52,166 nucleotides of DNA, taken from an uncultured Bacteroidales bacterium (lineage in GTDB: Bacteria; Bacteroidota; Bacteroidia; Bacteroidales; UBA932). Of the stretch, positions 655 to 25,214 are shown piece after piece. The notes beneath the pieces were generated by a model. That model was not told the origin of the DNA, did no database searches, and saw only the letters and a program-made list of their open reading frames with translations. The stretch lies in the NCBI GenBank assembly GCA_947306365.1, contig CAMZGD010000017.1:1-52166 (forward strand), written 5' to 3'. A program made the position numbers and the translations under genes. Within the stretch, counting starts at the first letter, position 1. Each line of letters starts with the position of its first letter.

Positions 655-1335
655 TCATTCGAAATGGATTTCGCCGAACCATTCCGGCGTGTGAAAGTTC
701 GGCCGCGGGCTTCCTACGGGGTTCCAGCTCAGGAAGTGGGGGACGGCCGTATGGTCGCCGCACTTATAGAAATTGGCCCGTACGGTCCGGCCGCTGAATG
801 ACGTAAGGTTCAGGTCGGACTGGGCGTAGAGCCGCTTCGGGACGGCGATGGTGAGCGTCCAGGCCTGCGGCCCTTCGCGCGTGCCGAAGGCTTCGCTGCC
901 CAGCGTCGACTCGCGGCGGATCTGGCGGACGATCTCCTCGCCGCAGCGGTGCCGTTCGTTCCGGTTTGGGCCAAAGTGGAAAGTGCCGTGCCCGATGCAG
1001 TTCATCTCCAGGTTGAAATACGCGCTGTCGCGCTCGGAGGGGATCATGAAGAACTCGACACAGTCATCGAGATAGGGAAGGGATCCGGCATCCTGGCCGT
1101 ACGTGGCGCGGACGCCTTCCTCCCGTACTTCGTACTGAAGGTAGATCTCCGTTTCGGAATGCATGATGCGGAAACGGACGTCCGGCTTGTAAGGGAAGTC
1201 CGCCCAGTTGACTTGGTCGATGGCGTGCCATTCGACGGCGGCCTCATCGAACCGGGCCTTCACTTCTTCGATGGACGGTTCGGGGGTGGAAAAGGCTACT
1301 TTTGCTACGAGAATTGTCATAATAAGCAGTTTCAT
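655..1335 (-). CDS. Secreted CBM9-like carbohydrate-binding protein
   Basis: The 226-residue product begins with a short hydrophobic segment (LLIMTILVAKVAFS) that looks like a signal peptide, so it is probably exported. The rest resembles the CBM9/DOMON-like beta-sandwich found in periplasmic Bacteroidota proteins: an early VEWHAIDQVNW segment, then IYLQYEVRE and the acidic LDDCVEFFM motif where strands meet the ligand face, and a C-terminal RANFYKCGD...SWNPV stretch. No catalytic residues are recognisable, so it is a binding protein or a stand-alone module, not an enzyme. It is a single gene, convergent with nothing and divergent from ppdK; its -7 box (1340-1347) ends only 4 nt before the ATG. 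The family assignment is from memory of the fold pattern. Confidence 0.7.
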   Translation of the reverse strand: MKLLIMTILVAKVAFSTPEPSIEEVKARFDEAAVEWHAIDQVNWADFPYKPDVRFRIMHSETEIYLQYEVREEGVRATYGQDAGSLPYLDDCVEFFMIPSERDSAYFNLEMNCIGHGTFHFGPNRNERHRCGEEIVRQIRRESTLGSEAFGTREGPQAWTLTIAVPKRLYAQSDLNLTSFSGRTVRANFYKCGDHTAVPHFLSWNPVGSPRPNFHTPEWFGEIHFE

Positions 1336-14001: not shown

Positions 14002-15291
14002 TCAGGCCAAGATTTTCTTATAGGGGGCAATCATTCCTTCGGAGAGTTTTCCGCCCATCTTCGCGCGGAGCTTCGGATTGTTCATCAGCCAGCCGACCAG
14101 GTACATCTTCAGCGAGGTTTTCCATTTCTTCTGGGGAAAATCGTACTGGCCGTGAGAACGGAAGAAAGCATGGTCGGCGCGCATCAGGCCGCGCATCTGG
14201 TAGATCAGATCGCGGAAGATCTTCATGCCGCCGACGCCCAGGAAGTTCTGCGGCGGCGTGTACTGCGTTTCCATCGCCCGGCAGAGCGTGGCGCTCAGCG
14301 CATCGACCGCACGGTCGGCGTCCGTCTCGTCGCTCGCCACGCCTGCAAGGAAATTGCCGCCCACCTGGGCGCGCGCTTCCAGCAGCAGCTGCAGGTTCGG
14401 CTCGTCGGAATACTTGCCGGCCACCAGATAGCCGAACGGCGTGCCCATCGTCACAGTGCGGTGCCCGTTGCAGAACTGGCGGTCGTCGTACAGCTTGAAG
14501 CGGGATCCCATCGCGTGGTCCTTGATGCGGAACGCATAGAGGATGGCGTCGTGTTGGTGGATGGTGTTGCGCAGGAAGTCGTCGAAGCCGTCCGTATACA
14601 CGCATTTGCCCGTTGCGGCGCAGTTGAAGCAGCTCAGGCAACCGCCCTTGAAGGGGAAGTCTTCGAGGTTGACCAGGTCGCATTCGTAGGGGAAAACGGC
14701 GCGGAAGCGGTCGATCAGGGCCTGGAGCGCCGTATCGCCGGGCAACAGGTCCGCTACGATGACGGCCCTCCTGCCGGGCTTCTTTTCCGGTATGGGAGAA
14801 AGCGCCGCGGATGCGCCGCCGTCCAGCTGCCAGAAAACGAAGGACAGCCAGTCTTCGGCCTGCTTGCGGCCCTGCTTCGTCAGGATGTCTTCCATATCGG
14901 CGGAAAGCCCGTCGATAAAGCGCAGTCCCAGGTCAACGCAGTTGTCGCGGATGAACCGGTGGGCGGTGATGTCGTAGAAATGCTTCGACGTGGAGACCTG
15001 TGTGGCCGCCTTGGCGGAGAAATCCTCGCCGGAGGCCTTCATCAGCTCGATGAAACGATGGAGCTGGTACGGGACGAGAAAGGTATAGACGGGATAGCAG
15101 AAAACGATCAGTTCGGCTTTGCGCAGTGCTTCCAGGGCGGGGGAGAAATCTTTCTCGAGCGACTTGATCTGCTGACCGGCAGCCAGATAGCTGAATGCGT
15201 GCTGCGGGAACCGTTTCTCCAGATACAGGCACGTATGCAGCGTGATGGAATCGGGGCCCTTGGGGCTCCCGTTGATGACGAGGATGTTCAT
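14002..15291 (-). CDS. Double flavodoxin-like NAD(P)H oxidoreductase with a Cys motif
   Basis: The 429-residue protein opens with VINGSPKG, the phosphate-binding loop of FMN-dependent NAD(P)H:quinone reductases, and has the flavin-fold motif FCYPVYTFLVPYQLHRF. A second flavodoxin-like half starts near residue 190 (RRAVIVADLLPGDTALQAL) but lacks a recognisable NGSP loop; it contains GGCLSCFNCAATGKC, a C-x2-C-x2-C-x5-C cluster typical of iron-sulfur-associated or multimeric NADPH:FMN reductases. The last 80 residues are rich in Lys and Arg with no known domain. It is divergent from the steroid-type operon across 34 bp with overlapping promoters, so it may supply flavin or electrons to the OYE enzyme; that link is inference. 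No signal peptide. Confidence 0.72.
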   Translation of the reverse strand: MNILVINGSPKGPDSITLHTCLYLEKRFPQHAFSYLAAGQQIKSLEKDFSPALEALRKAELIVFCYPVYTFLVPYQLHRFIELMKASGEDFSAKAATQVSTSKHFYDITAHRFIRDNCVDLGLRFIDGLSADMEDILTKQGRKQAEDWLSFVFWQLDGGASAALSPIPEKKPGRRAVIVADLLPGDTALQALIDRFRAVFPYECDLVNLEDFPFKGGCLSCFNCAATGKCVYTDGFDDFLRNTIHQHDAILYAFRIKDHAMGSRFKLYDDRQFCNGHRTVTMGTPFGYLVAGKYSDEPNLQLLLEARAQVGGNFLAGVASDETDADRAVDALSATLCRAMETQYTPPQNFLGVGGMKIFRDLIYQMRGLMRADHAFFRSHGQYDFPQKKWKTSLKMYLVGWLMNNPKLRAKMGGKLSEGMIAPYKKILA

Positions 15292-15295
15292 ACGA

Positions 15296-15303
15296 CAAAG
15301 TTA
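15296..15303 (-). promoter_or_regulatory. -7 box TAACTTTG of the flavodoxin-like gene
   Basis: A perfect TAnnTTTG match on the minus strand, 4 nt before the ATG at 15291, implying a leaderless transcript. It faces away from the promoter at 15315-15322. Confidence 0.6.
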
Positions 15304-15314
15304 GCATTAATTGT

Positions 15315-15322
15315 TATCTTTG
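15315..15322 (+). promoter_or_regulatory. -7 box TATCTTTG of the SDR/5-alpha-reductase operon
   Basis: A perfect TAnnTTTG match, 3 nt before the GTG at 15326. Its position argues against the upstream in-frame TTG at 15311 as the start codon. The two divergent boxes are separated by only 11 nt, so the two units probably share regulators. Confidence 0.6.
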
Positions 15323-15325
15323 TGT

Positions 15326-16096
15326 GTGCAAACAGCCTTGATAACAGGAGGAAGTTCCGGAATGGGACTCGCGTTCGCGCGGCAGCTGGCCGGGCGCGGC
15401 TATGATTTGATCCTGGTCGGAAACCGGCCCGAGGAACTCGACGCGGCCGGGTCTTCCCTGCGTGCGGCGTACCCTGTGTCCGTCACGGTCCGGTTCAAGG
15501 ACCTGGCGCAGCCCGATGCCGCCGACCGGCTCTACGACTGGTGCACGAAGGAGGCGGGCGTCCTGCCCGACATCGTGGTCAACAATGCCGGCATGTTCTT
15601 TTTCAAGGAGCTGGATGCCGCCGACCTGGACCGCGTGCAGGCGATGGTCAATCTGCACGTGGTGACAGTGACGCGCCTCAGCCTGCTTTTCGGCGAAGCG
15701 ATGAAGCGTCGCGGCAGCGGGTATCTGCTCAATGTCTCCTCGATGGCGGCCCGGCTGCCGGTTCCCGGCATCACGGTGTATTCCGCCACGAAGGCCTATC
15801 TCAAGAGCTTCGGCCGTTCGCTGTCCTATGAACTGAAACCGTACGGGGTGGGGATGACCACCGTGTGCCCGGCAGCCGTGGCTACGCCGCTCTATCGCCT
15901 GAGCGAACAGAAGCTGCAGCTGGGTGTCCGCCTGGGGCTGATCTGGACGCCGCAGGCGTTGGCGAAGCGGGCCTTGCGGGCGATGTTCCGCGGCCGGCGC
16001 GTCGTCAGCCCCGGTTTGATGAACTGCTATCTTCCCGCTTTGATCGCCCTCCTGCCCGGATGGCTTGTCGCTGCCTTATGGAAAAAGTGGAAATGA
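15326..16096 (+). CDS. SDR-family oxidoreductase (hydroxysteroid dehydrogenase-like)
   Basis: The product is 256 residues from GTG 15326, which gives the expected SDR N-terminus QTALITGGSSGMG. The NAD(P)-binding TGGSSGMG (residues 7-14), the NNAG motif, the catalytic Ser (S139), Y152 and K156 (YSATK) are all present. The C-terminus ends in hydrophobic SPGLMNCYLPALIALLPGWLV, which resembles membrane-associated HSD17B/KAR-type SDRs and may tether it to the inner membrane beside the 5-alpha-reductase. It is the first gene of the operon; its stop overlaps an ATG (16093). A 3- or 17-hydroxysteroid dehydrogenase role is inferred from the operon; SDR sequence alone does not fix the substrate. Confidence 0.88.
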   Translation: MQTALITGGSSGMGLAFARQLAGRGYDLILVGNRPEELDAAGSSLRAAYPVSVTVRFKDLAQPDAADRLYDWCTKEAGVLPDIVVNNAGMFFFKELDAADLDRVQAMVNLHVVTVTRLSLLFGEAMKRRGSGYLLNVSSMAARLPVPGITVYSATKAYLKSFGRSLSYELKPYGVGMTTVCPAAVATPLYRLSEQKLQLGVRLGLIWTPQALAKRALRAMFRGRRVVSPGLMNCYLPALIALLPGWLVAALWKKWK

Positions 16097-17031
16097 TCGT
16101 CCTGCTGTTCCTGGCGAGCCTGCTTCCGGCGCGGGCCCAGCACGTGGAAACCGTTCCGTTCGGGGATTTCGAACACTGGACGGTCCGGCACCTGAAGGAA
16201 TCCGCGGTAATGGGCGGTGCGGTCAGGACGCTGTATGTCGTCGGTCCCGACGAAACCATCGAAGGCAACCGGACCTACGATTATGCGAAGACCATCTGGG
16301 CGTCGTCGAATGCCTATGCACGCATCTCGGGCGTCACCAAGACCAGCGTGACGGTCGAGCCGGAAGCCGGGCCGTCCGGCACCTGCGCCAGGCTGTCCAC
16401 GCAGTTTGCCAGCTGCAAGGTGGCGGGGCTGGTCGAGATCAAGGTGCTGGCCACGGGCGCGCTCTACTGGGGGCGGATGCTGGAGCCGGTCACCAGCGTC
16501 AAGCGTCCGTATTCCTTTATGGACTGGGGCATCCCGTTCACGAAGCGTCCGTCCGCCCTGCTGCTCGACTGCAAGGCGTATCTGCCCGCGACGGGTGTGC
16601 TGACGCGCGGCACCACGTTCCGCCAGACGGAATTTCCGGGCGAAGATCCCTGCCAGATCATGTTCCTGCTGCAGAAACGCTGGGAAGATGCCGACGGAAA
16701 CATCCACGCCCTGCGTGTGGGGACGGCCTTCCGGCGGATCGCCCGGAGTACGGACGGCTGGATTTTCTCTCTGGAGGTCCCCGTGATCTACGGAGATGCC
16801 CGCAAGGATCCGGCGTACCGGACGTATATGGGCCTGCTGCAGGGAGAACGGGCGTTGTATGCCGTAAACAGTCGCGGCCAGCGGAAACCCATCCTGGAGG
16901 AGGGCTGGGCGGAACCCGACACGCCCTGCACGCACGCCGTCCTGCAGATTACCGCCGGCTGCCAGGGTGCTTTCGTCGGGGCTCTTGGCAATACCCTGTG
17001 GGTGGACAACGTCCGGCTGGCCTATCCGTAG
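16078..17031 (+). CDS. Secreted PCMD-domain protein
   Basis: The 317-residue product has a cleavable signal peptide (MIVLLFLASLLPARAQ region). The start may be ATG 16078, giving a Lys in the n-region, or ATG 16093, which forms an ATGA overlap with the SDR stop; both are plausible. The mature part matches the PCMD (putative carbohydrate metabolism domain) pattern: FGDFEHW at the start, WASSNAYARISG, GTCARLSTQF, then GIPFTKRPSALLLDCKAYLP and the late VDNVRL strand. PCMD proteins are common as outer-membrane or surface beta-sandwich proteins in Bacteroidota, with no proven catalytic role. Its place inside an operon of steroid-type reductases is unusual; lipid or glycoconjugate binding is one possibility. 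Confidence 0.8.
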   Translation: MEKVEMIVLLFLASLLPARAQHVETVPFGDFEHWTVRHLKESAVMGGAVRTLYVVGPDETIEGNRTYDYAKTIWASSNAYARISGVTKTSVTVEPEAGPSGTCARLSTQFASCKVAGLVEIKVLATGALYWGRMLEPVTSVKRPYSFMDWGIPFTKRPSALLLDCKAYLPATGVLTRGTTFRQTEFPGEDPCQIMFLLQKRWEDADGNIHALRVGTAFRRIARSTDGWIFSLEVPVIYGDARKDPAYRTYMGLLQGERALYAVNSRGQRKPILEEGWAEPDTPCTHAVLQITAGCQGAFVGALGNTLWVDNVRLAYP

Positions 17032-17049
17032 AATCCATACTCCGATGCA

Positions 17050-17820
17050 ATGATATCTTCGCAAGCATTCAACCTCTTCCTGATCGTGATGTCCGCCATC
17101 GCCGTGGTCGTTTTCGTGGCGCTGTTTTTCGTGGACGCCGGCTATGGCAAGTTCTACCATCCGAAATGGGGGCCGTCGCTCGACAACCACCTGGGCTGGT
17201 TCCTGATGGAAGTGCCGGTGTTCATCGCGATGCTGGTGCTCTGGGCGCTGTCCGACCGGCGTACCGACGTCGTGCGGCTGGTGTTCCTGCTGCTGTTCGA
17301 ACTGCACTATTTCCATCGCTCCTTCATCTTCCCGCGGCAGCTGCGCGGGCACAGCCGAATGCCGTGGACGATCGTGCTGATGGGGGCGCTTTTCAATACG
17401 CTGAACGCCCTGATGCAGGGCGGCTGGATCTTCTTCCTCTCGCCGGCGGACGCCTATCCGCGCAGCTGGCTGACCAGCGTGCCGTTCCTGGCCGGTACGG
17501 CGCTGTTTTTCATCGGGATGTATGTCAACATCCAGTCGGACGGCATTATCCGCAACCTGCGGAAACCGGGCGATATGGCGCATTACCTGCCCAAGGGCGG
17601 GATGTTCCGTTTCGTGACGAGCGCCAATTATTTCGGCGAGTTCCTGGAATGGGTGGGCTTTGCCGTCCTGACCTGGTCGTGGTCAGGGGCGGTCTTTGCA
17701 CTGTGGACGTTCGCCAACCTGGCGCCGCGCGCCGCCCGCATCTACGACCTTTACAGCCGGGAGTTTCCCGACGAACTGGATACGCACAAAGTGAAGCGGA
17801 TGCTTCCGTTCATCTATTGA
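17050..17820 (+). CDS. Steroid 5-alpha-reductase homologue (SRD5A family)
   Basis: The 256-residue membrane protein has about six to seven hydrophobic segments and aligns by eye along its length with mammalian SRD5A1/2. Conserved features are GYGKF (Y32, like human Tyr33), WFLMEVP (E54, like the catalytic Glu57), LHYFHR (Y87, like Tyr91, which polarises the 3-keto group), the NADPH-binding IRNLRKPGD (residues 167-175), GGMFRFVTSANYFGEFLEW (N193, E197) and the C-terminal LPFIY. The Gln preceding the catalytic Glu in SRD5A2 is Met53 here. Family enzymes reduce the delta4 bond of 3-oxo steroids with NADPH to 5-alpha products. The exact substrate (bile acid, hormone, sterol) is unknown. It is 18 nt after the PCMD gene and 1 nt before the OYE gene. 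Confidence 0.9.
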   Translation: MISSQAFNLFLIVMSAIAVVVFVALFFVDAGYGKFYHPKWGPSLDNHLGWFLMEVPVFIAMLVLWALSDRRTDVVRLVFLLLFELHYFHRSFIFPRQLRGHSRMPWTIVLMGALFNTLNALMQGGWIFFLSPADAYPRSWLTSVPFLAGTALFFIGMYVNIQSDGIIRNLRKPGDMAHYLPKGGMFRFVTSANYFGEFLEWVGFAVLTWSWSGAVFALWTFANLAPRAARIYDLYSREFPDELDTHKVKRMLPFIY

Positions 17821-17821
17821 C

Positions 17822-19069
17822 ATGGCTGACAATCCGATCGTTTCTCCCATCTTTACGCCGGTCACCATCGGGCCGGTGACCCTGCGCAACCGTGTGATCC
17901 GCTCGGCCGCCTTCGAGAACATGGCCTACGGAAACAGTCCTTCTCAGGACCTGTATGACTATCACGTGGCCGTGGCGCGCGGCGGGGTGGGGATGACCAC
18001 GCTGGCATACGCGTCCGTCAACCGGAGCGGCCTCTCGTTCGACGGCCAGCTGTGGATGCGCGAGGAGATCGTGCCGGGTCTCCGGCGCATTACCGACGCG
18101 GTCCATGCCGCCGGCGCGAAATGCTCCATCCAGCTGGGCCATTGCGGCAATATGACGCACCGGTCCACGTGCGGCTGCCTGCCGGTCGGCGCCTCCAGCG
18201 GCTTCAATCTGTATTCGCCTACCTTTGTCCGCGGATTGAAAACGGCCGAGATCGACGCGCTGGTCGAGGATTTCGGCCGGGCCGTCGATCTGGCGCGTGC
18301 AGCCGGTTTCGACTGCGTGGAGATCCACGCCGGGCACGGCTACCTCATCAGCCAGTTCCTTTCGCCCTATACGAACCACCGGCGTGACGAGTACGGCGGT
18401 TCGCTGGATAACCGGATGCGCCTGATGCGGCGCGTGATCGGCCGGGTGATGGAAGCGGCGGGCGACGACCTGGGCGTCGTCGTCAAGATGAACATGCACG
18501 ACGGATTCCGGCGGGGAATGCAGGAGGCGGAGTGCCTGGAAGTGGCGCGCGAACTGGAAAGGCTTGGGGTACACGCCCTCGTGCTGTCGGCCGGTTTCGT
18601 GAGCAAGGCGCCGATGGAAGTGATGCGCGGCGCGATGCCGCTCAGGACGATGACGCATTATATGGATATGCGCCGGTTCTGGTGGCTCAGGGCGCTGGTC
18701 CGCGTATTCGGCCGGATTATGGTTCCTACAGTACCGTATAGCGAAGGGTATTTCCTGGAAGACGCAAAGCGTTTCCGGGCTGCTGTGAAACTGCCGCTGA
18801 TCTATGTGGGCGGGCTCGTGTCCCGGCAGAAGATGGAAGAGGTGCTGGCAGCGGGATTCGACGGGTTGCAGATGGCCCGGGCGCTGGTGCGCGACACGGA
18901 CTTCGTGAACAAGCTGCGCAGCGGTGAATGCGAGCGCAGCGAATGCGGCCATTCCAACTACTGTATCGGACGGATGTACACGCTGGAAATGAAATGCAAC
19001 CGGTGTGTGGCCGACCTGCCGGACAAGCTGCGGCGGGAAGTGGACCAGGCTGAAAAGCGGTGGCGATGA
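17822..19069 (+). CDS. OYE-family NADH:flavin oxidoreductase (BaiCD/5-beta-reductase-like)
   Basis: This 415-residue enzyme has the FMN-binding TIM barrel of Old Yellow Enzyme relatives: LRNRVIRSAAFENMA at the start, IQLGHCG, the ligand-binding His pair in IHAGHGYLISQFLSPYTN, the RRDEYGGSLDNRMRL signature, and IYVGGLVS plus GFDGLQMARALV near the end. It stops before the FAD/NAD domain present in 2,4-dienoyl-CoA reductase and BaiCD. A C-terminal Cys cluster (C-x4-C-x5-C-x10-C-x2-C) replaces the usual C-x2-C-x3-C-x11-C iron-sulfur motif, so cluster binding is uncertain. It would reduce an activated C=C bond, such as delta4 of a 3-oxo steroid. It follows the 5-alpha-reductase by 1 nt and overlaps the next gene through ATGA. 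Confidence 0.9.
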   Translation: MADNPIVSPIFTPVTIGPVTLRNRVIRSAAFENMAYGNSPSQDLYDYHVAVARGGVGMTTLAYASVNRSGLSFDGQLWMREEIVPGLRRITDAVHAAGAKCSIQLGHCGNMTHRSTCGCLPVGASSGFNLYSPTFVRGLKTAEIDALVEDFGRAVDLARAAGFDCVEIHAGHGYLISQFLSPYTNHRRDEYGGSLDNRMRLMRRVIGRVMEAAGDDLGVVVKMNMHDGFRRGMQEAECLEVARELERLGVHALVLSAGFVSKAPMEVMRGAMPLRTMTHYMDMRRFWWLRALVRVFGRIMVPTVPYSEGYFLEDAKRFRAAVKLPLIYVGGLVSRQKMEEVLAAGFDGLQMARALVRDTDFVNKLRSGECERSECGHSNYCIGRMYTLEMKCNRCVADLPDKLRREVDQAEKRWR

Positions 19070-19872
19070 ACGGAAGGGTCCTGGTTACCGGCGCTACGGG
19101 CAGTATGGGGGCGGCCGCGGTCGAATCGCTGGCGGCGCAGGGGATTCCCGTGCTGATGGCCTGCCGCAACCTGGAAAAGGCAGCGGCTGTCCGGGAGAGC
19201 GTTCTCGGCCGTCATCCGCAGGCAGACCTGGCCGTCCGGAAGATCGACCTGGCATCGCTCGATTCGGTCCGCGCGTTTGCGGAAGGCCTCAAAGCGGACT
19301 CCGTCACAGCGGTGTTCAACAACGCCGGCGTCATTTCAAAGAGCTATTCCATTACTGTAGATGGATTTGAAAACACTTTTTCCGTCAATTATTTCGGTCC
19401 TTGGCTCCTGACGCTGCTGCTGCTGCCAAAACTGCCGCCGGACGCGCGGATTGTGAACATGGTCTCGCTGACCTGCCGGTTCGTTACGCTCGATGAAACC
19501 ACCTTGCGGCCGACGGAACGTGCGTTCAGCCAGCTGGGCACGTATGCACGCGCCAAGCGGTCGCTGCTGTCTTTCTCGCTCGAACTGGCCCGCCGCCATC
19601 CGCAGTTGCGGGTCAACCTGGCGGACCCTGGGGTCGTCGCCTCCGATATGATCGACCTGGGGCACTGGTATGATCCGCTGGCCGACCGTCTCTTCAAACC
19701 GTTGTGCAAGAAGCCGGTTGACGGCGTACAACCGGCTCTGCGGGCGCTTGCTGCCGCGGAAGGCGTTCGTTATTATGTAGGAAAGGGAGACCGGGCCGTT
19801 CCCCGGCGGTATCTCAATCCGGCGCTGGACACGCGCATCTGGGCGGAAACGGAGCGGCTTATCCGCGTTTGA
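19066..19872 (+). CDS. SDR-family oxidoreductase (retinol dehydrogenase-like)
   Basis: The product is 268 residues from ATG 19066, chosen because it overlaps the OYE stop as ATGA; a GTG at 19060 is less likely. It has the NAD(P)-binding VTGATGSMG, ACRNLEKA as in RDH/protochlorophyllide reductase-like SDRs, VFNNAGV, IVNMVSL with the catalytic Ser and YARAKRS with Tyr and Lys. The sequence differs clearly from the first SDR in the operon, so the two should act on different positions or with opposite stereochemistry, for example 3-alpha versus 3-beta hydroxyl. It is the last gene of the operon and overlaps the convergent pssA by 14 nt at the 3' ends. Confidence 0.88.
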   Translation: MNGRVLVTGATGSMGAAAVESLAAQGIPVLMACRNLEKAAAVRESVLGRHPQADLAVRKIDLASLDSVRAFAEGLKADSVTAVFNNAGVISKSYSITVDGFENTFSVNYFGPWLLTLLLLPKLPPDARIVNMVSLTCRFVTLDETTLRPTERAFSQLGTYARAKRSLLSFSLELARRHPQLRVNLADPGVVASDMIDLGHWYDPLADRLFKPLCKKPVDGVQPALRALAAAEGVRYYVGKGDRAVPRRYLNPALDTRIWAETERLIRV

Positions 19873-20563
19873 GCGTAGCCAGGTTCAGCACCAGGTAATA
19901 GACAAGAATCAGGAAGATACAGAGGCTGACGGTCACGTGCCAGGGATGATGGAGTTCCCGGATCAGGCACGCGATCACCAGGACGACGCTGCCCACGATG
20001 AAGGCCTTGAGCTGCCGTGTCATTTTCTTGAGCGAAAACATGGGAAATTCGCACACCAGCAGGAAAGAAAAGAGGGCCGTCAGGACGGGAATGAACCAGA
20101 CCGTTCCCATCAGGATGTGCAGGAAACCGTCGGTATAGAAAGAATAAACGGACAGGGGAGTGAGAAGCAATGCGCAGCCCGAAGTGGCCAGGCCCAGGAA
20201 ACTGGTGGTCTGGCGGGTGTCGATGTTGAATTTGGCCAGCCGGAGCGCGGAAGCGGCGGTCAGCACGAAGGGGATCCAACGCAGCAGCGGAATCTCCGGA
20301 TGTGCGATCCCATACCAGGAAGAGAGGCAGGCCGAAGGACAGAGTCCGAAACTGATCAGGTCGGCCAGCGAGTCGAGTTCCTTTCCGATTTCAGAATAGG
20401 CGTGAAGGGCCCGGGCCGAGAATCCGTCGAAAAAGTCGAAAAACTCGGAAACCAGCAGGCAAACCAGTACGGCGGAAAAGTGTCCCCGTACCGCAAAGAC
20501 AACCCCTGTGCAACCCGAAAGCAGGTTGCACAGGGTGAGGATATTCGGAATGTGCTTCTTCAT
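19859..20563 (-). CDS. pssA: CDP-diacylglycerol--serine O-phosphatidyltransferase
   Basis: The 234-residue membrane protein contains the complete CDP-alcohol phosphotransferase motif D-G-x2-A-R-x8-G-x3-D-x3-D, seen as DGFSAR...GKELDSLAD (about residues 46-68), which binds two metal ions and CDP-DAG. The N-terminal MKKHIPNILTLCNLLSGC is typical of bacterial PssA. It makes phosphatidylserine, the precursor of phosphatidylethanolamine, at the inner membrane. The start shares one base with the stop of the C1 peptidase upstream (TGATG), so it may be translated from the peptidase transcript; no own promoter was identified. The last 14 nt overlap the convergent SDR gene. Confidence 0.95.
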   Translation of the reverse strand: MKKHIPNILTLCNLLSGCTGVVFAVRGHFSAVLVCLLVSEFFDFFDGFSARALHAYSEIGKELDSLADLISFGLCPSACLSSWYGIAHPEIPLLRWIPFVLTAASALRLAKFNIDTRQTTSFLGLATSGCALLLTPLSVYSFYTDGFLHILMGTVWFIPVLTALFSFLLVCEFPMFSLKKMTRQLKAFIVGSVVLVIACLIRELHHPWHVTVSLCIFLILVYYLVLNLATLKRG

Positions 20564-21687
20564 CAGAGGCCCATTTTTTTGCGGATGTCCCTGGGAATCG
20601 CGTCCTTATGGACCATGATGCTGATGGTACGCATCTGGATGTAGGCCCTAGACATATAGAGGTAACCCTTCATCTCCTCGTTGCGGCCTTCGCCCCAGGA
20701 ATTCTTGGTCTTGTAGAACAGATTGCCGTCCTGGTCCTTGTACAGCCCCGTGAGGTGCATCAGGTGGTCGTCGACGGTCTGGAAGCGTTCGAAGGCGGTC
20801 TGGCGGATTTCCTGCGTCACGACGCGGTCGGGATACACTTTCTCCAGTTTGACGGCCTCGGTGAAGTCTTCGGGTGCCGGGCAGATGGCGATGCCGCGGT
20901 TGTGCTGGAATTCGCCGGAGGTCAGGTCGCCGTCCCACGCGACCGTGTAGCCGTTGCGCAGGGCGTTGTCGATCACGGCCATGAAATCGTCGAGCGGCAG
21001 GTTCCACAGCAGCGCGTGGTCCCAGTTGTCCGGAATCTCGAGCGGGACCTGTTTATAGAAGGGGTGATGGCTGAAGCTCGTCAGTTCGACGTAGTCACTC
21101 AGGTCGTCCAGGCCCAGCATCTTGGCGAAGCCCAGCGGGGTGTAGGTCTTGCCCTCGTACACAAACGTCTCGGGAACCTCGCCCAGGTAGATGTCGAACA
21201 GGCTCTTGACGAGCTTGTGGTATTCGGGGCTGAGGTTCTTGAGGTTTACGGAGACATCGGCGATGCCTTTCAGGTAGGAAGACAGTTCGCCGTGGTCGTG
21301 CCGGTCGGAGCCGTAGTTGATGCCGCCATACACGCTTTCCGGCACGATGCCGTAGCGTTCGATGGCATTCGTGGCCATATGGGCGATCGAGCCGGGGTTG
21401 ATGTTGCCCCGGCCGCGGCGGAGATAATTGTCGAAGATGCGGTCCTTGTAGTTGTTCCGCACGATGAACATCTCGGAGAGATCGTATTCTCCCTTGCCCT
21501 GGCGGAGCAGTTCCGCTTCAAGGAACGACACGGTCGCGAAGCACCAGCAGGTGCCGGTACGGGCCTGGTCCTTCACCGGAGTGACGGGGATGTCGCGCAC
21601 CGGCGTGAAGGTGTAGATGGTCTGGGTCTGTGCAAAAGCAGCGGTACAGAGGACCGCTGCCAATGTGATGGTAAGGATACGTTTCAT
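20563..21687 (-). CDS. Secreted C1-family cysteine peptidase (copy 2)
   Basis: The 374-residue protein has a signal peptide (MKRILTITLAAVLCTAAFAQ) and a papain-fold peptidase domain of the bleomycin hydrolase/aminopeptidase C type. The catalytic Cys is in GTCWCFATVSFLE (near residue 47), the His in DDHLMHLTGLYKD and the Asn in KNSWGE near the C-terminus. The insert between the Cys and His carries YGIVPESVYGG and LGLDDLSDYVELTSFSHHP, as in Bacteroidales PepC-like secreted forms. It is paralogous to the gene 6 nt upstream and ends with the same PRDIRKKMG-type tail. Being exported, it is likely to trim dietary or host peptides, or cell-surface proteins, in the periplasm. Confidence 0.93.
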   Translation of the reverse strand: MKRILTITLAAVLCTAAFAQTQTIYTFTPVRDIPVTPVKDQARTGTCWCFATVSFLEAELLRQGKGEYDLSEMFIVRNNYKDRIFDNYLRRGRGNINPGSIAHMATNAIERYGIVPESVYGGINYGSDRHDHGELSSYLKGIADVSVNLKNLSPEYHKLVKSLFDIYLGEVPETFVYEGKTYTPLGFAKMLGLDDLSDYVELTSFSHHPFYKQVPLEIPDNWDHALLWNLPLDDFMAVIDNALRNGYTVAWDGDLTSGEFQHNRGIAICPAPEDFTEAVKLEKVYPDRVVTQEIRQTAFERFQTVDDHLMHLTGLYKDQDGNLFYKTKNSWGEGRNEEMKGYLYMSRAYIQMRTISIMVHKDAIPRDIRKKMGL

Positions 21688-21693
21688 TCCGGA

Positions 21694-22920
21694 TTACTTG
21701 ATGCCGAGTTTCTTCCTGATGTCCTTCGGAATGGCGTCCTTGTGGACCATGAAGTCCATCGTCTTGTAGCGCACATAGGCTTCGGAGACATACCAGAGGC
21801 CCTTGTACTTGCCGGTCTCGCCCCAGGAGTTCTTCACCATGTAATACTTGGTGCCGTTCTGGTCCTTGGCGATGCCGTAGATCTGCATGCCGTGGTCGTC
21901 GGTCGTCGTCTTGTTGTCGTATCCTTCCTGGCGGAGTTCCGGGGTGATGGTCAGTTCGGGGACGGGTTCGTTGAAGGTGGGACGCTGTCCCGGGACGGCG
22001 CCGCCGACCCAGCGGACCTGGTCGGAACCGGCCTGTTCGGCCTTCTTCTGGATGGCTTCCATGTCGGGCACGATGCCGATGCCGTCGCGGGTGAAGCCCT
22101 GTTCGCTCACGTCAGAAGCCCAGGCCACGGTGTAGCCGTTCTCGACGGCATAGTCGATGATGGCCATCATGTCCTCCATCGGCACGTTGTAGGCCTGCTC
22201 CCAGCGCCAGTTGTCTTCCACTTCCACGGGGTGTTTCTCATAATAGGAAAGGTGGGTCCAGGAAGTGAAGTCCAGATAGTCGTCGAGGTTGACGTTCAGG
22301 GTCTCGAAATAGCTCTTCGGGGTGTATTCCTTGCCCTTGTAGGTAAACTTCTCAGGAATGGGACCAAGGTAAGCGTCGAGAATCCCCTGGAGGCCCTTCT
22401 TCCAGGCGGTGGAGAGCTTGCGGTTGGGGTTCCTCAGGATGCCGTCCATGTAGCCTTTCAGTCCGGCTTCGAGTTCACCGTGCATATGGCGGTCGGTGCC
22501 GTAGTTCAGGCCCGGCATCACTTCGTCGGGCACGATGCCGTAGTCGCGGAGCACGTAGATCAGGTCGCCGAACGAGCTGCCCTGGGCATAGTTGAGCTTT
22601 CCGTCCACGCGGACGTATTTCACGGCCTTGTCGGCATAGGCGTGCGAGACGACGAACATCTCGGAAAGGTCGGGATAGTCGGCTTCCTTGAGCTTGTTGA
22701 TGCGGATGGCCTCGGACTCGATGAACGAGAGGGAGGAGAAGCACCAGCAGGTGCCGGAACTGGCCTGGTTCTTCACGGACGTGATCGGATTCTCCTTGAC
22801 CACGGTGAATTTGAAACCTTCGCCCCTGTCTTCCGGTTTCGGGGGCATGGGGCCCATGGGCGGTTGCGCGGTTGCAGCGATGCTGATGAGTGCGGCTGCG
22901 AATAAAAGGATTTTCTTCAT
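21694..22920 (-). CDS. Secreted C1-family cysteine peptidase (copy 1)
   Basis: The 408-residue product has a signal peptide (ILLFAAALISIAATAQ) followed by a Pro/Met-rich linker (PPMGPMPPKPEDRG) and the same bleomycin hydrolase-like domain as its downstream neighbour: SGTCWCFSSLSFIESEA, DDHGMQIYG and KNSWGETGKY hold Cys, His and Asn. It differs by a longer insert around residues 275-310 (GGAVPGQRPTFNEPVPEL). It is the first gene of a peptidase-peptidase-pssA transcript from the -7 box at 22951. The tandem pair is best explained by a local duplication with divergence. Confidence 0.93.
   Translation of the reverse strand: MKKILLFAAALISIAATAQPPMGPMPPKPEDRGEGFKFTVVKENPITSVKNQASSGTCWCFSSLSFIESEAIRINKLKEADYPDLSEMFVVSHAYADKAVKYVRVDGKLNYAQGSSFGDLIYVLRDYGIVPDEVMPGLNYGTDRHMHGELEAGLKGYMDGILRNPNRKLSTAWKKGLQGILDAYLGPIPEKFTYKGKEYTPKSYFETLNVNLDDYLDFTSWTHLSYYEKHPVEVEDNWRWEQAYNVPMEDMMAIIDYAVENGYTVAWASDVSEQGFTRDGIGIVPDMEAIQKKAEQAGSDQVRWVGGAVPGQRPTFNEPVPELTITPELRQEGYDNKTTTDDHGMQIYGIAKDQNGTKYYMVKNSWGETGKYKGLWYVSEAYVRYKTMDFMVHKDAIPKDIRKKLGIK

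Positions 22921-23162: not shown

Positions 23163-25214
<2,052 letters not shown>

Follow-up and report, generated by a model that had tools for sequence, protein, structure and literature searches.

The closest described relatives of the operon considered here belong to gut Bacteroidales that make isoallo-type bile acids. According to a review (PMC10382948), Parabacteroides merdae, Odoribacter laneus and Bacteroides dorei turn 3-oxo-delta4-lithocholic acid (3-oxo-delta4-LCA) into isoallolithocholic acid (isoalloLCA), and disruption of the 5-alpha-reductase (5AR) of P. merdae stops the formation of alloLCA derivatives; this 5AR gene is clustered with a predicted 3-beta-hydroxysteroid dehydrogenase (3-beta-HSDH) and an NADH:flavin oxidoreductase, hypothesised to be a 5-beta-reductase (5BR). 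The legend to Fig. 6 of a second review (PMC9645264) places the oxidative steps of 3-alpha-HSDH and 5BR first, followed by the reductive steps of 5AR and 3-beta-HSDH. A gut bacterial delta4-3-ketosteroid 5-beta-reductase has also been described, and its authors set it beside FadH (1PS9), a homologue (PMC12238238). The present analysis concerns a five-gene operon at positions 15326-19872 of a 52,166-nt contig (CAMZGD010000017.1, assembly GCA_947306365.1) from an uncultured Bacteroidales bacterium, the whole of this contig being referred to below as the window.

The five genes lie on the forward strand and are tightly coupled, with the overlaps and gaps given by the original prediction. SDR1 (15326-16096, 256 aa, GTG start), a classical short-chain dehydrogenase/reductase (PF00106 adh_short, 1.4e-37) and, by presumed substrate, a candidate 3-hydroxysteroid dehydrogenase, overlaps the gene of a PCMD-domain protein (start at 16078 or 16093, end at 17031; PF13201, 7.4e-17) with a hydrophobic N-terminal stretch. 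After a gap of 18 nt follows the SRD5A homologue (17050-17820, 256 aa; Steroid_dh PF02544, 2.1e-39), a predicted membrane 3-oxo-delta4-steroid 5-alpha-reductase in which 'MEY' replaces the motif 'QEY', and 1 nt further a short flavoenzyme of the OYE/FadH type (17822-19069, 415 aa; Oxidored_FMN PF00724, 4.2e-56), which shares an ATGA overlap with SDR2 (19066-19872, 268 aa; PF00106 adh_short, 1.1e-19), a candidate second hydroxysteroid dehydrogenase. All five Pfam matches exceed the family cut-offs.

This gene set is of a kind already in print for P. merdae, and the window holds a further member with an added PCMD gene. Compared by description (PMC10382948), the likeness is one of gene classes only: an SRD5A-type reductase, an OYE-family partner and SDR partners, clustered. 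The window differs in its internal PCMD gene, in the position of SDR1 upstream of SRD5A, in having two SDRs and in its closest titled relatives, which, among the best 80 of at least 556, are largely from the forestomach. The new points are the Met53 substitution in the SRD5A homologue and the PCMD link. The shared gene classes speak for the explanation that the pathway of P. merdae and Odoribacter operates here unchanged, LCA or 3-oxoLCA being converted to isoalloLCA with SDR1 and SDR2 as the 3-alpha- and 3-beta-HSDH. The reading preferred here is broader. Judged from homology and gene context, it is likely that the operon serves steroid chemistry in general, and fairly probable that it is a Bacteroidales redox module for the A ring of 3-oxo-steroids working in the way set out below.

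The SRD5A homologue carries most of this reading. In a phmmer search against PDB chains it matched PbSRD5A (7c83; 5.1e-48) along residues 10-255 and human SRD5A2 (7bw1; 3.1e-40) along residues 22-256; its PF02544 score is 135.4 bits against a cut-off of 22.6, and it is the one PF02544 gene found in the source genome. Because these alignments span nearly the full length of the protein, the homology includes the N-terminal steroid-binding part, and the earlier assignment to the steroid-type reductases holds. PF02544 also covers fatty-enoyl and polyprenol reductases, and this, together with the departure of Met53 from the QEY motif, could be taken to mean that the protein is a reductase of that sort and the operon a part of ordinary lipid metabolism. 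Such kinship was rejected by the sequence similarity comparison: a single enoyl-CoA reductase match was obtained, to the very-long-chain enzyme, at just 1.3e-6 and over the C-terminal residues 146-255 alone, whereas the SRD5A2 alignment runs through the N-terminal steroid-binding half. With the glutamate and tyrosine that bind the 3-keto group invariant as well, the lipid-reductase explanation is highly improbable.

The active site was followed in an alignment of 148 distinct sequences, consisting of rows with more than 200 aligned residues (20 of 168 were dropped as duplicates); 128 belong to the gut type and 20 to a second branch. One row (L109) is titled Pseudoflavonifractor, and the others come from loci of the order. 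The five residues named in the original prediction, Tyr32, Glu54, Tyr87, Asn193 and Glu197, are identical in all 148, in PbSRD5A and in human SRD5A2, and E54 and Y87 are the equivalents of the 3-keto-binding E57 and Y91 of SRD5A2. That list was incomplete, and the site is not fully canonical: residue 53, beside Glu54, is Met in 148 of 148 sequences and Gln in PbSRD5A (Q53) and SRD5A2 (Q56). In the paper on PbSRD5A (PMC7815742), E57 and Y91 of the Q-E-Y motif bind the 3-keto oxygen, Q56 bonds E57, and the human variants Q56A/L, E57L and Y91F lose activity. The window protein, which also has an OYE partner gene, stands apart from the QEY-type SRD5As in this position; with Met53 in it and throughout the alignment, it is classed here with an 'MEY' branch of SRD5A homologues. 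That Met53 is unique to Bacteroidales was ruled out by a more distant Nocardia homologue, which has Met as well.

Gene order was compared in the titled loci, which are the best 80 of at least 556 confirmed relatives and describe the nearest relatives only; 63 of them have at least 3 kb upstream and at least 4 kb downstream and are called full-flank loci, the other 17 being dropped. OYE was found near SRD5A in 59 of the 63, SDR1 in 54, SDR2 in 42 and PCMD in 18, so that the comparison upholds the SRD5A-OYE pair and shows the SDR partnership to be less strict. The commonest order, SRD5A-OYE-SDR1-SDR2, occurs in 19 full-flank loci, e.g., in Heminiphilus faecis (L102), and counts in favour of the unchanged bile-acid pathway; it is also the order in Sanguibacteroides (L125) and, with a divergent PCMD gene upstream, in Barnesiella sp. 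An22 (L110), while Phocaeicola massiliensis (L134) has an SRD5A-OYE-SDR2-like arrangement; Sanguibacteroides and P. massiliensis serve here as titled stand-ins for P. merdae, O. laneus and B. dorei. The order of the window, SDR1-PCMD-SRD5A-OYE-SDR2, was met in three full-flank loci, and three of 20 further loci have SRD5A alone.

The SRD5A and OYE genes are also inherited together. Among 61 relatives, both were found in 26, SRD5A only in 1, OYE only in 2 and neither in 32 (p=8e-14), seven weaker OYE matches (31-35% identity) not being counted as OYE. A profile search covered 392 genomes of the order, chosen from a larger group by requiring a completeness of at least 90 (source genome excepted). 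It gave SRD5A matches in 110: 53 genomes are of type A (the gut type) and 42 of type B, and the remaining 15, whose matches were weak or short, were counted as neither; the split was set by us at an E-value of 1e-99. Type A SRD5A and OYE were both present in 52 of the 392 genomes, SRD5A only in 1, OYE only in 22 and neither in 317 (p=7e-46; this p-value and the preceding one assume an independence that the genomes do not have). Across many families of the order, forestomach lineages included, SRD5A and OYE form a conserved pair. PCMD does not belong to this constant core but is a frequent addition to it, and the presence of the SDRs also varies. Spread by mobile elements was considered and set aside: a search of 50,697 phage records found nothing, and one of 72,556 plasmid records gave two matches.

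In a tree of 100 rows, quickly built and accompanied by long-branch warnings, the 78 rows of type A form one side of a branch with an SH-aLRT of 99. OYE is nearby in 72 of these 78 rows and in none of the 20 type B loci whose flanks were read. Type B (L165-L184), which also has MEY, is accompanied in 14 of 20 loci by an extended SDR directly upstream on the same strand. The one example scanned matched Epimerase (PF01370, 3.5e-33) and 3Beta_HSD (PF01073, 7.8e-25), along with HpnA (1.3e-66) and the sterol demethylase SdmB (1.2e-55), both of the latter below their curated cut-offs. As a steroid link this extended SDR is suggestive only, HpnA being the stronger match than SdmB. Three type B genomes from a single genus (G273, G108 and G199) have, on the SRD5A contig and about 9 kb from that gene, an OYE relative with an in-frame stop.

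The flavoenzyme shares with BaiCD (NF041087) and FadH (PDB 1ps9) the N-terminal FMN barrel and cysteines close to where FadH has its Fe-S motif, and differs from them in length (about 410 aa against about 640-670), in being without the second half and in having three of the four cysteines. It scored 190.4 bits with the BaiCD model against a cut-off of 825, which places it outside that family, and 213 bits with the mycofactocin OYE model against a cut-off of 793. No C-terminal extension beyond the window OYE exceeds 11 residues in any of 113 aligned rows, which makes the short form the usual one among them. A YqjM-like HxxH pair, H169/H172, of which FadH has no counterpart, and Y174 are conserved in 97% or more of these rows. 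FadH-type proteins bind a 4Fe-4S cluster through four cysteine ligands with the spacing CxxCx3Cx11C. Three of these cysteines are kept in the C-terminus of the OYE proteins (C375 and C381 in 113/113 rows, C392 in 112/113), together with H377 in 107/113, and in the window protein the second cysteine is replaced by Ser; these proteins may hold a metal or Fe-S site with altered ligands. In a related cluster without SRD5A (L236, G006:C16:1-4876), the order is SDR, a protein with 4Fe-4S domains and a flavodoxin-like start, OYE and SDR, and the gene of this protein hints at external electron carriers. Both SDRs keep their characteristic residues in at least 97% of aligned rows, S139, Y152 and K156 in the 80 rows of SDR1 and N108, S134, Y160 and K164 in the 63 rows of SDR2, and SDR2 is nearest to PRK06197-type (1.3e-37, below the cut-off) and protochlorophyllide-reductase-type SDRs.

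In the A-ring module as we picture it, one SDR would oxidise the 3-hydroxy group to the 3-ketone, and the OYE would then remove the 5-beta hydrogen to give a 3-oxo-delta4 steroid (or carry out the reverse reduction). The membrane SRD5A would transfer a hydride from NADPH to the alpha face of C5, with Tyr87 and Glu54 holding the 3-keto group, after which an SDR would reduce C3 to the opposite stereochemistry. The net effect would be to turn a bent 5-beta steroid into its flat 5-alpha form or to saturate 3-oxo-delta4 steroids. These steps probably run in series. The original prediction had instead taken the OYE to be a parallel producer of the 5-beta series beside the 5-alpha series of SRD5A. 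The FadH-homologous 5-beta-reductase mentioned at the outset and the reversibility in principle of the reaction are consistent with that proposal. At the same time, the reviews (PMC10382948, PMC9645264) have the Bacteroidota flavoenzyme as a hypothesised 5-beta-reductase drawn as an oxidative step ahead of 5AR, and one operon making opposite products from one substrate would be less economical. Parallel action is unlikely, and because the flavoenzyme is described as oxidative on 5-beta bile acids before 5AR acts (PMC9645264), the serial arrangement is the better reading.

Several observations weigh against the module as a whole. Met53 stands exactly where loss of Gln from human SRD5A2 (Q56A/L) kills activity (PMC7815742), and the direction and cofactor of the OYE are unproven because its score falls below the curated BaiCD cut-off. 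The pairing has exceptions: OYE is not near the gut-type SRD5A in 4 of the 63 full-flank loci, one type A genome (G037) is without OYE, and in G039 SRD5A and OYE lie on different contigs. Conversely, 19 of the 42 type B genomes carry an OYE relative at 1e-60, nine of them a strong one, and three OYE genomes have neither SRD5A type. The SDRs are inconstant, SDR1 not being nearby in 9 and SDR2 in 21 of the 63 full-flank loci, and in five of the 20 further loci, all from the window's own genus (L045-L049), SRD5A and OYE are present with neither SDR nearby.

Candidates for the natural substrate are a bile acid, a dietary sterol and a steroid hormone. Bile enters the gut downstream of the stomach compartments. 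Of the titled loci, 22 reach an identity of at least 74% (L054-L074 and L085), and 14 of these name the rumen, reticulum, omasum or abomasum, that is, sites upstream of bile entry; the other eight consist of three RUG names, which we take to denote rumen genomes, one reindeer and four run numbers, with a hindgut site in none. Moreover, a bile-salt-hydrolase-family search (PF02275) of the source genome, which is 87% complete, gave one match, partial (profile positions 1-160 of 316; 7.7e-11) though above the family cut-off. Both observations tell against the bile-acid pathway in its unchanged form. In its favour, targeted liquid chromatography-mass spectrometry of sheep rumen digesta, as reported in PMC12066648, detected bile acids including 3-oxo-DCA, 3-beta-HDCA and an entry printed 'AlaloLCA'. 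Of the earlier proposal that 3-oxo-delta4 steroids or bile acids are reduced, the steroid part stands on the type of reductase, and the bile-acid part is weakened by the largely ruminant-stomach habitat of the relatives, despite the bile acids of the rumen. Operation of the unchanged bile-acid pathway, like the assignment of bile acids as the natural substrate, is a tentative option that falls somewhat short of probable.

The habitat of the closest titled relatives speaks for plant sterols from the diet, or trace steroid hormones, as substrates in the forestomach, their 3-oxo-delta4 intermediates being converted to 5-alpha stanones and stanols. In the faeces of herbivores, C29 sterols and products derived from them, such as 5-alpha-sitostanol, predominate (PMC6366745), PbSRD5A prefers progesterone (PMC7815742), and the extended SDR that adjoins the type B SRD5A, with its matches to the 3Beta_HSD and SdmB models in one example, points the same way. 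Against this, no delta5-4 isomerase was identified in the operon, the 5-alpha-stanols may be direct components of the vegetation (PMC6366745), and the operon is also present in more distant titled loci, which include caecum, colon, rectum and faeces. On balance, the use of plant sterols or hormones is possible, yet doubtful.

The PCMD protein is what the operon adds to the known gene set. Its PF13201 score of 62.3 bits, against a cut-off of 28, makes it a PCMD protein by the curated standard, like PDB 3hbz, which is named a putative glycoside hydrolase; a PDB sequence search gave 3hbz as the best hit at 0.021, the rest being weaker. It is the one PF13201 gene found in the source genome. A hydrophobic N-terminus followed by an invariant Gln in 29 of 29 aligned PCMD rows suggests that the operon PCMD is probably exported. 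A profile built from 24 cluster-borne rows gave scores of 421-470 bits for five members lying elsewhere, with 15 ordinary PCMDs reaching no more than 33 bits, and because of this separation the cluster-borne proteins are regarded as a distinct subfamily, to which the operon PCMD belongs. In the locus L039/L214 (G024:C5), an ordinary PCMD gene (20.6 bits), outside this subfamily, lies just downstream of SDR2.

The PCMD gene takes several positions in the clusters, in both orientations, with at least 13 state changes on the SRD5A tree. As an obligatory part of the module it was rejected on the strength of these changes, of its presence in 18 of the 63 full-flank loci and of the five subfamily members outside the clusters, whose neighbouring genes show no visible steroid link. 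With two weak PCMD genomes of 67 (G201 and G238) left out, the subfamily was found in 40 of the 53 type A genomes, compared with 25 of the remaining 339 (p=2.5e-26, genomes treated as independent), and it was absent from all 42 type B genomes. This co-occurrence is confounded by kinship, since 25 of the 65 PCMD genomes are without type A and several of these belong to the families of the carriers; kinship and gut lifestyle may explain part of it, PCMD being present without SRD5A in several families. A role as an exported helper is plausible, and the PCMD protein might, by a weak line of reasoning, act outside the inner membrane by binding the hydrophobic substrate or presenting it. A stronger proposal would make the operon a forestomach module whose substrates, before the host absorbs them, are steroids of dietary or endogenous origin other than the classical bile acids of the hindgut, with PCMD as its dedicated exported factor for steroid capture or delivery; Bacteroidales would then have a steroid-processing system of five parts in place of loose enzymes. 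This we consider quite unlikely. A literature search found no paper combining PCMD with steroids, one directed at 5-alpha/5-beta-reductases was likewise empty, and such absence from a limited library is no proof of novelty.

Upstream, the operon is separated by a divergent intergenic region of 34 bp (15292-15325) from a flavoprotein gene on the reverse strand (14002-15291, starting at 15291). The gap holds one TAnnTTTG element per strand, beginning at 15315 (+) and 15303 (-), which ends 3-4 nt ahead of the respective start codon; TAnnTTTG is presumably the Bacteroidota -7-like promoter element. The whole window has 24 such sites on both strands, and 7 of its 34 open reading frames, which like the tBLASTn lists are mechanical calls, have one within 60 nt. 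A third gene (about 657-1335, reverse strand) shows the same 4-nt spacing from element to start, and this spacing may indicate leaderless mRNAs in the lineage. The divergent flavoprotein has a flavodoxin-like N-terminus and a compact C-x2-C-x2-C-x5-C motif, which we take to resemble that of iron-sulfur flavoproteins. As a partner of the operon it was rejected: no relative was found in 100 comparison loci at 1e-8, and although nine other genomes of the genus have a match and all nine carry SRD5A, the two genes lie on different contigs each time.

Downstream, the neighbouring gene (19859-20563) runs in the opposite direction and overlaps SDR2 by 14 nt. By appearance, the region 20563-22920 (-) contains a tandem pair of similar putative cysteine-peptidase-like genes with signal-peptide-like starts, and 23163-25214 (+) a putative ClpB-like AAA+ protein of 683 aa in which the usual N-terminal domain is apparently missing.

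The break in the QEY motif in 148 of 148 sequences raises a mechanistic question, namely how Met supports catalysis at a position where the human Q56A/L variants are dead. For the PCMD domain, whose function is uncertain, the link to this operon offers a lead that can be tested. IsoalloLCA is said to act on host immunity. This 'flat' 5-alpha bile acid also inhibits Gram-positive pathogens at micromolar levels, according to PMC10382948. In view of these effects, it matters to know in which bacteria the module occurs and what additional parts accompany it there.

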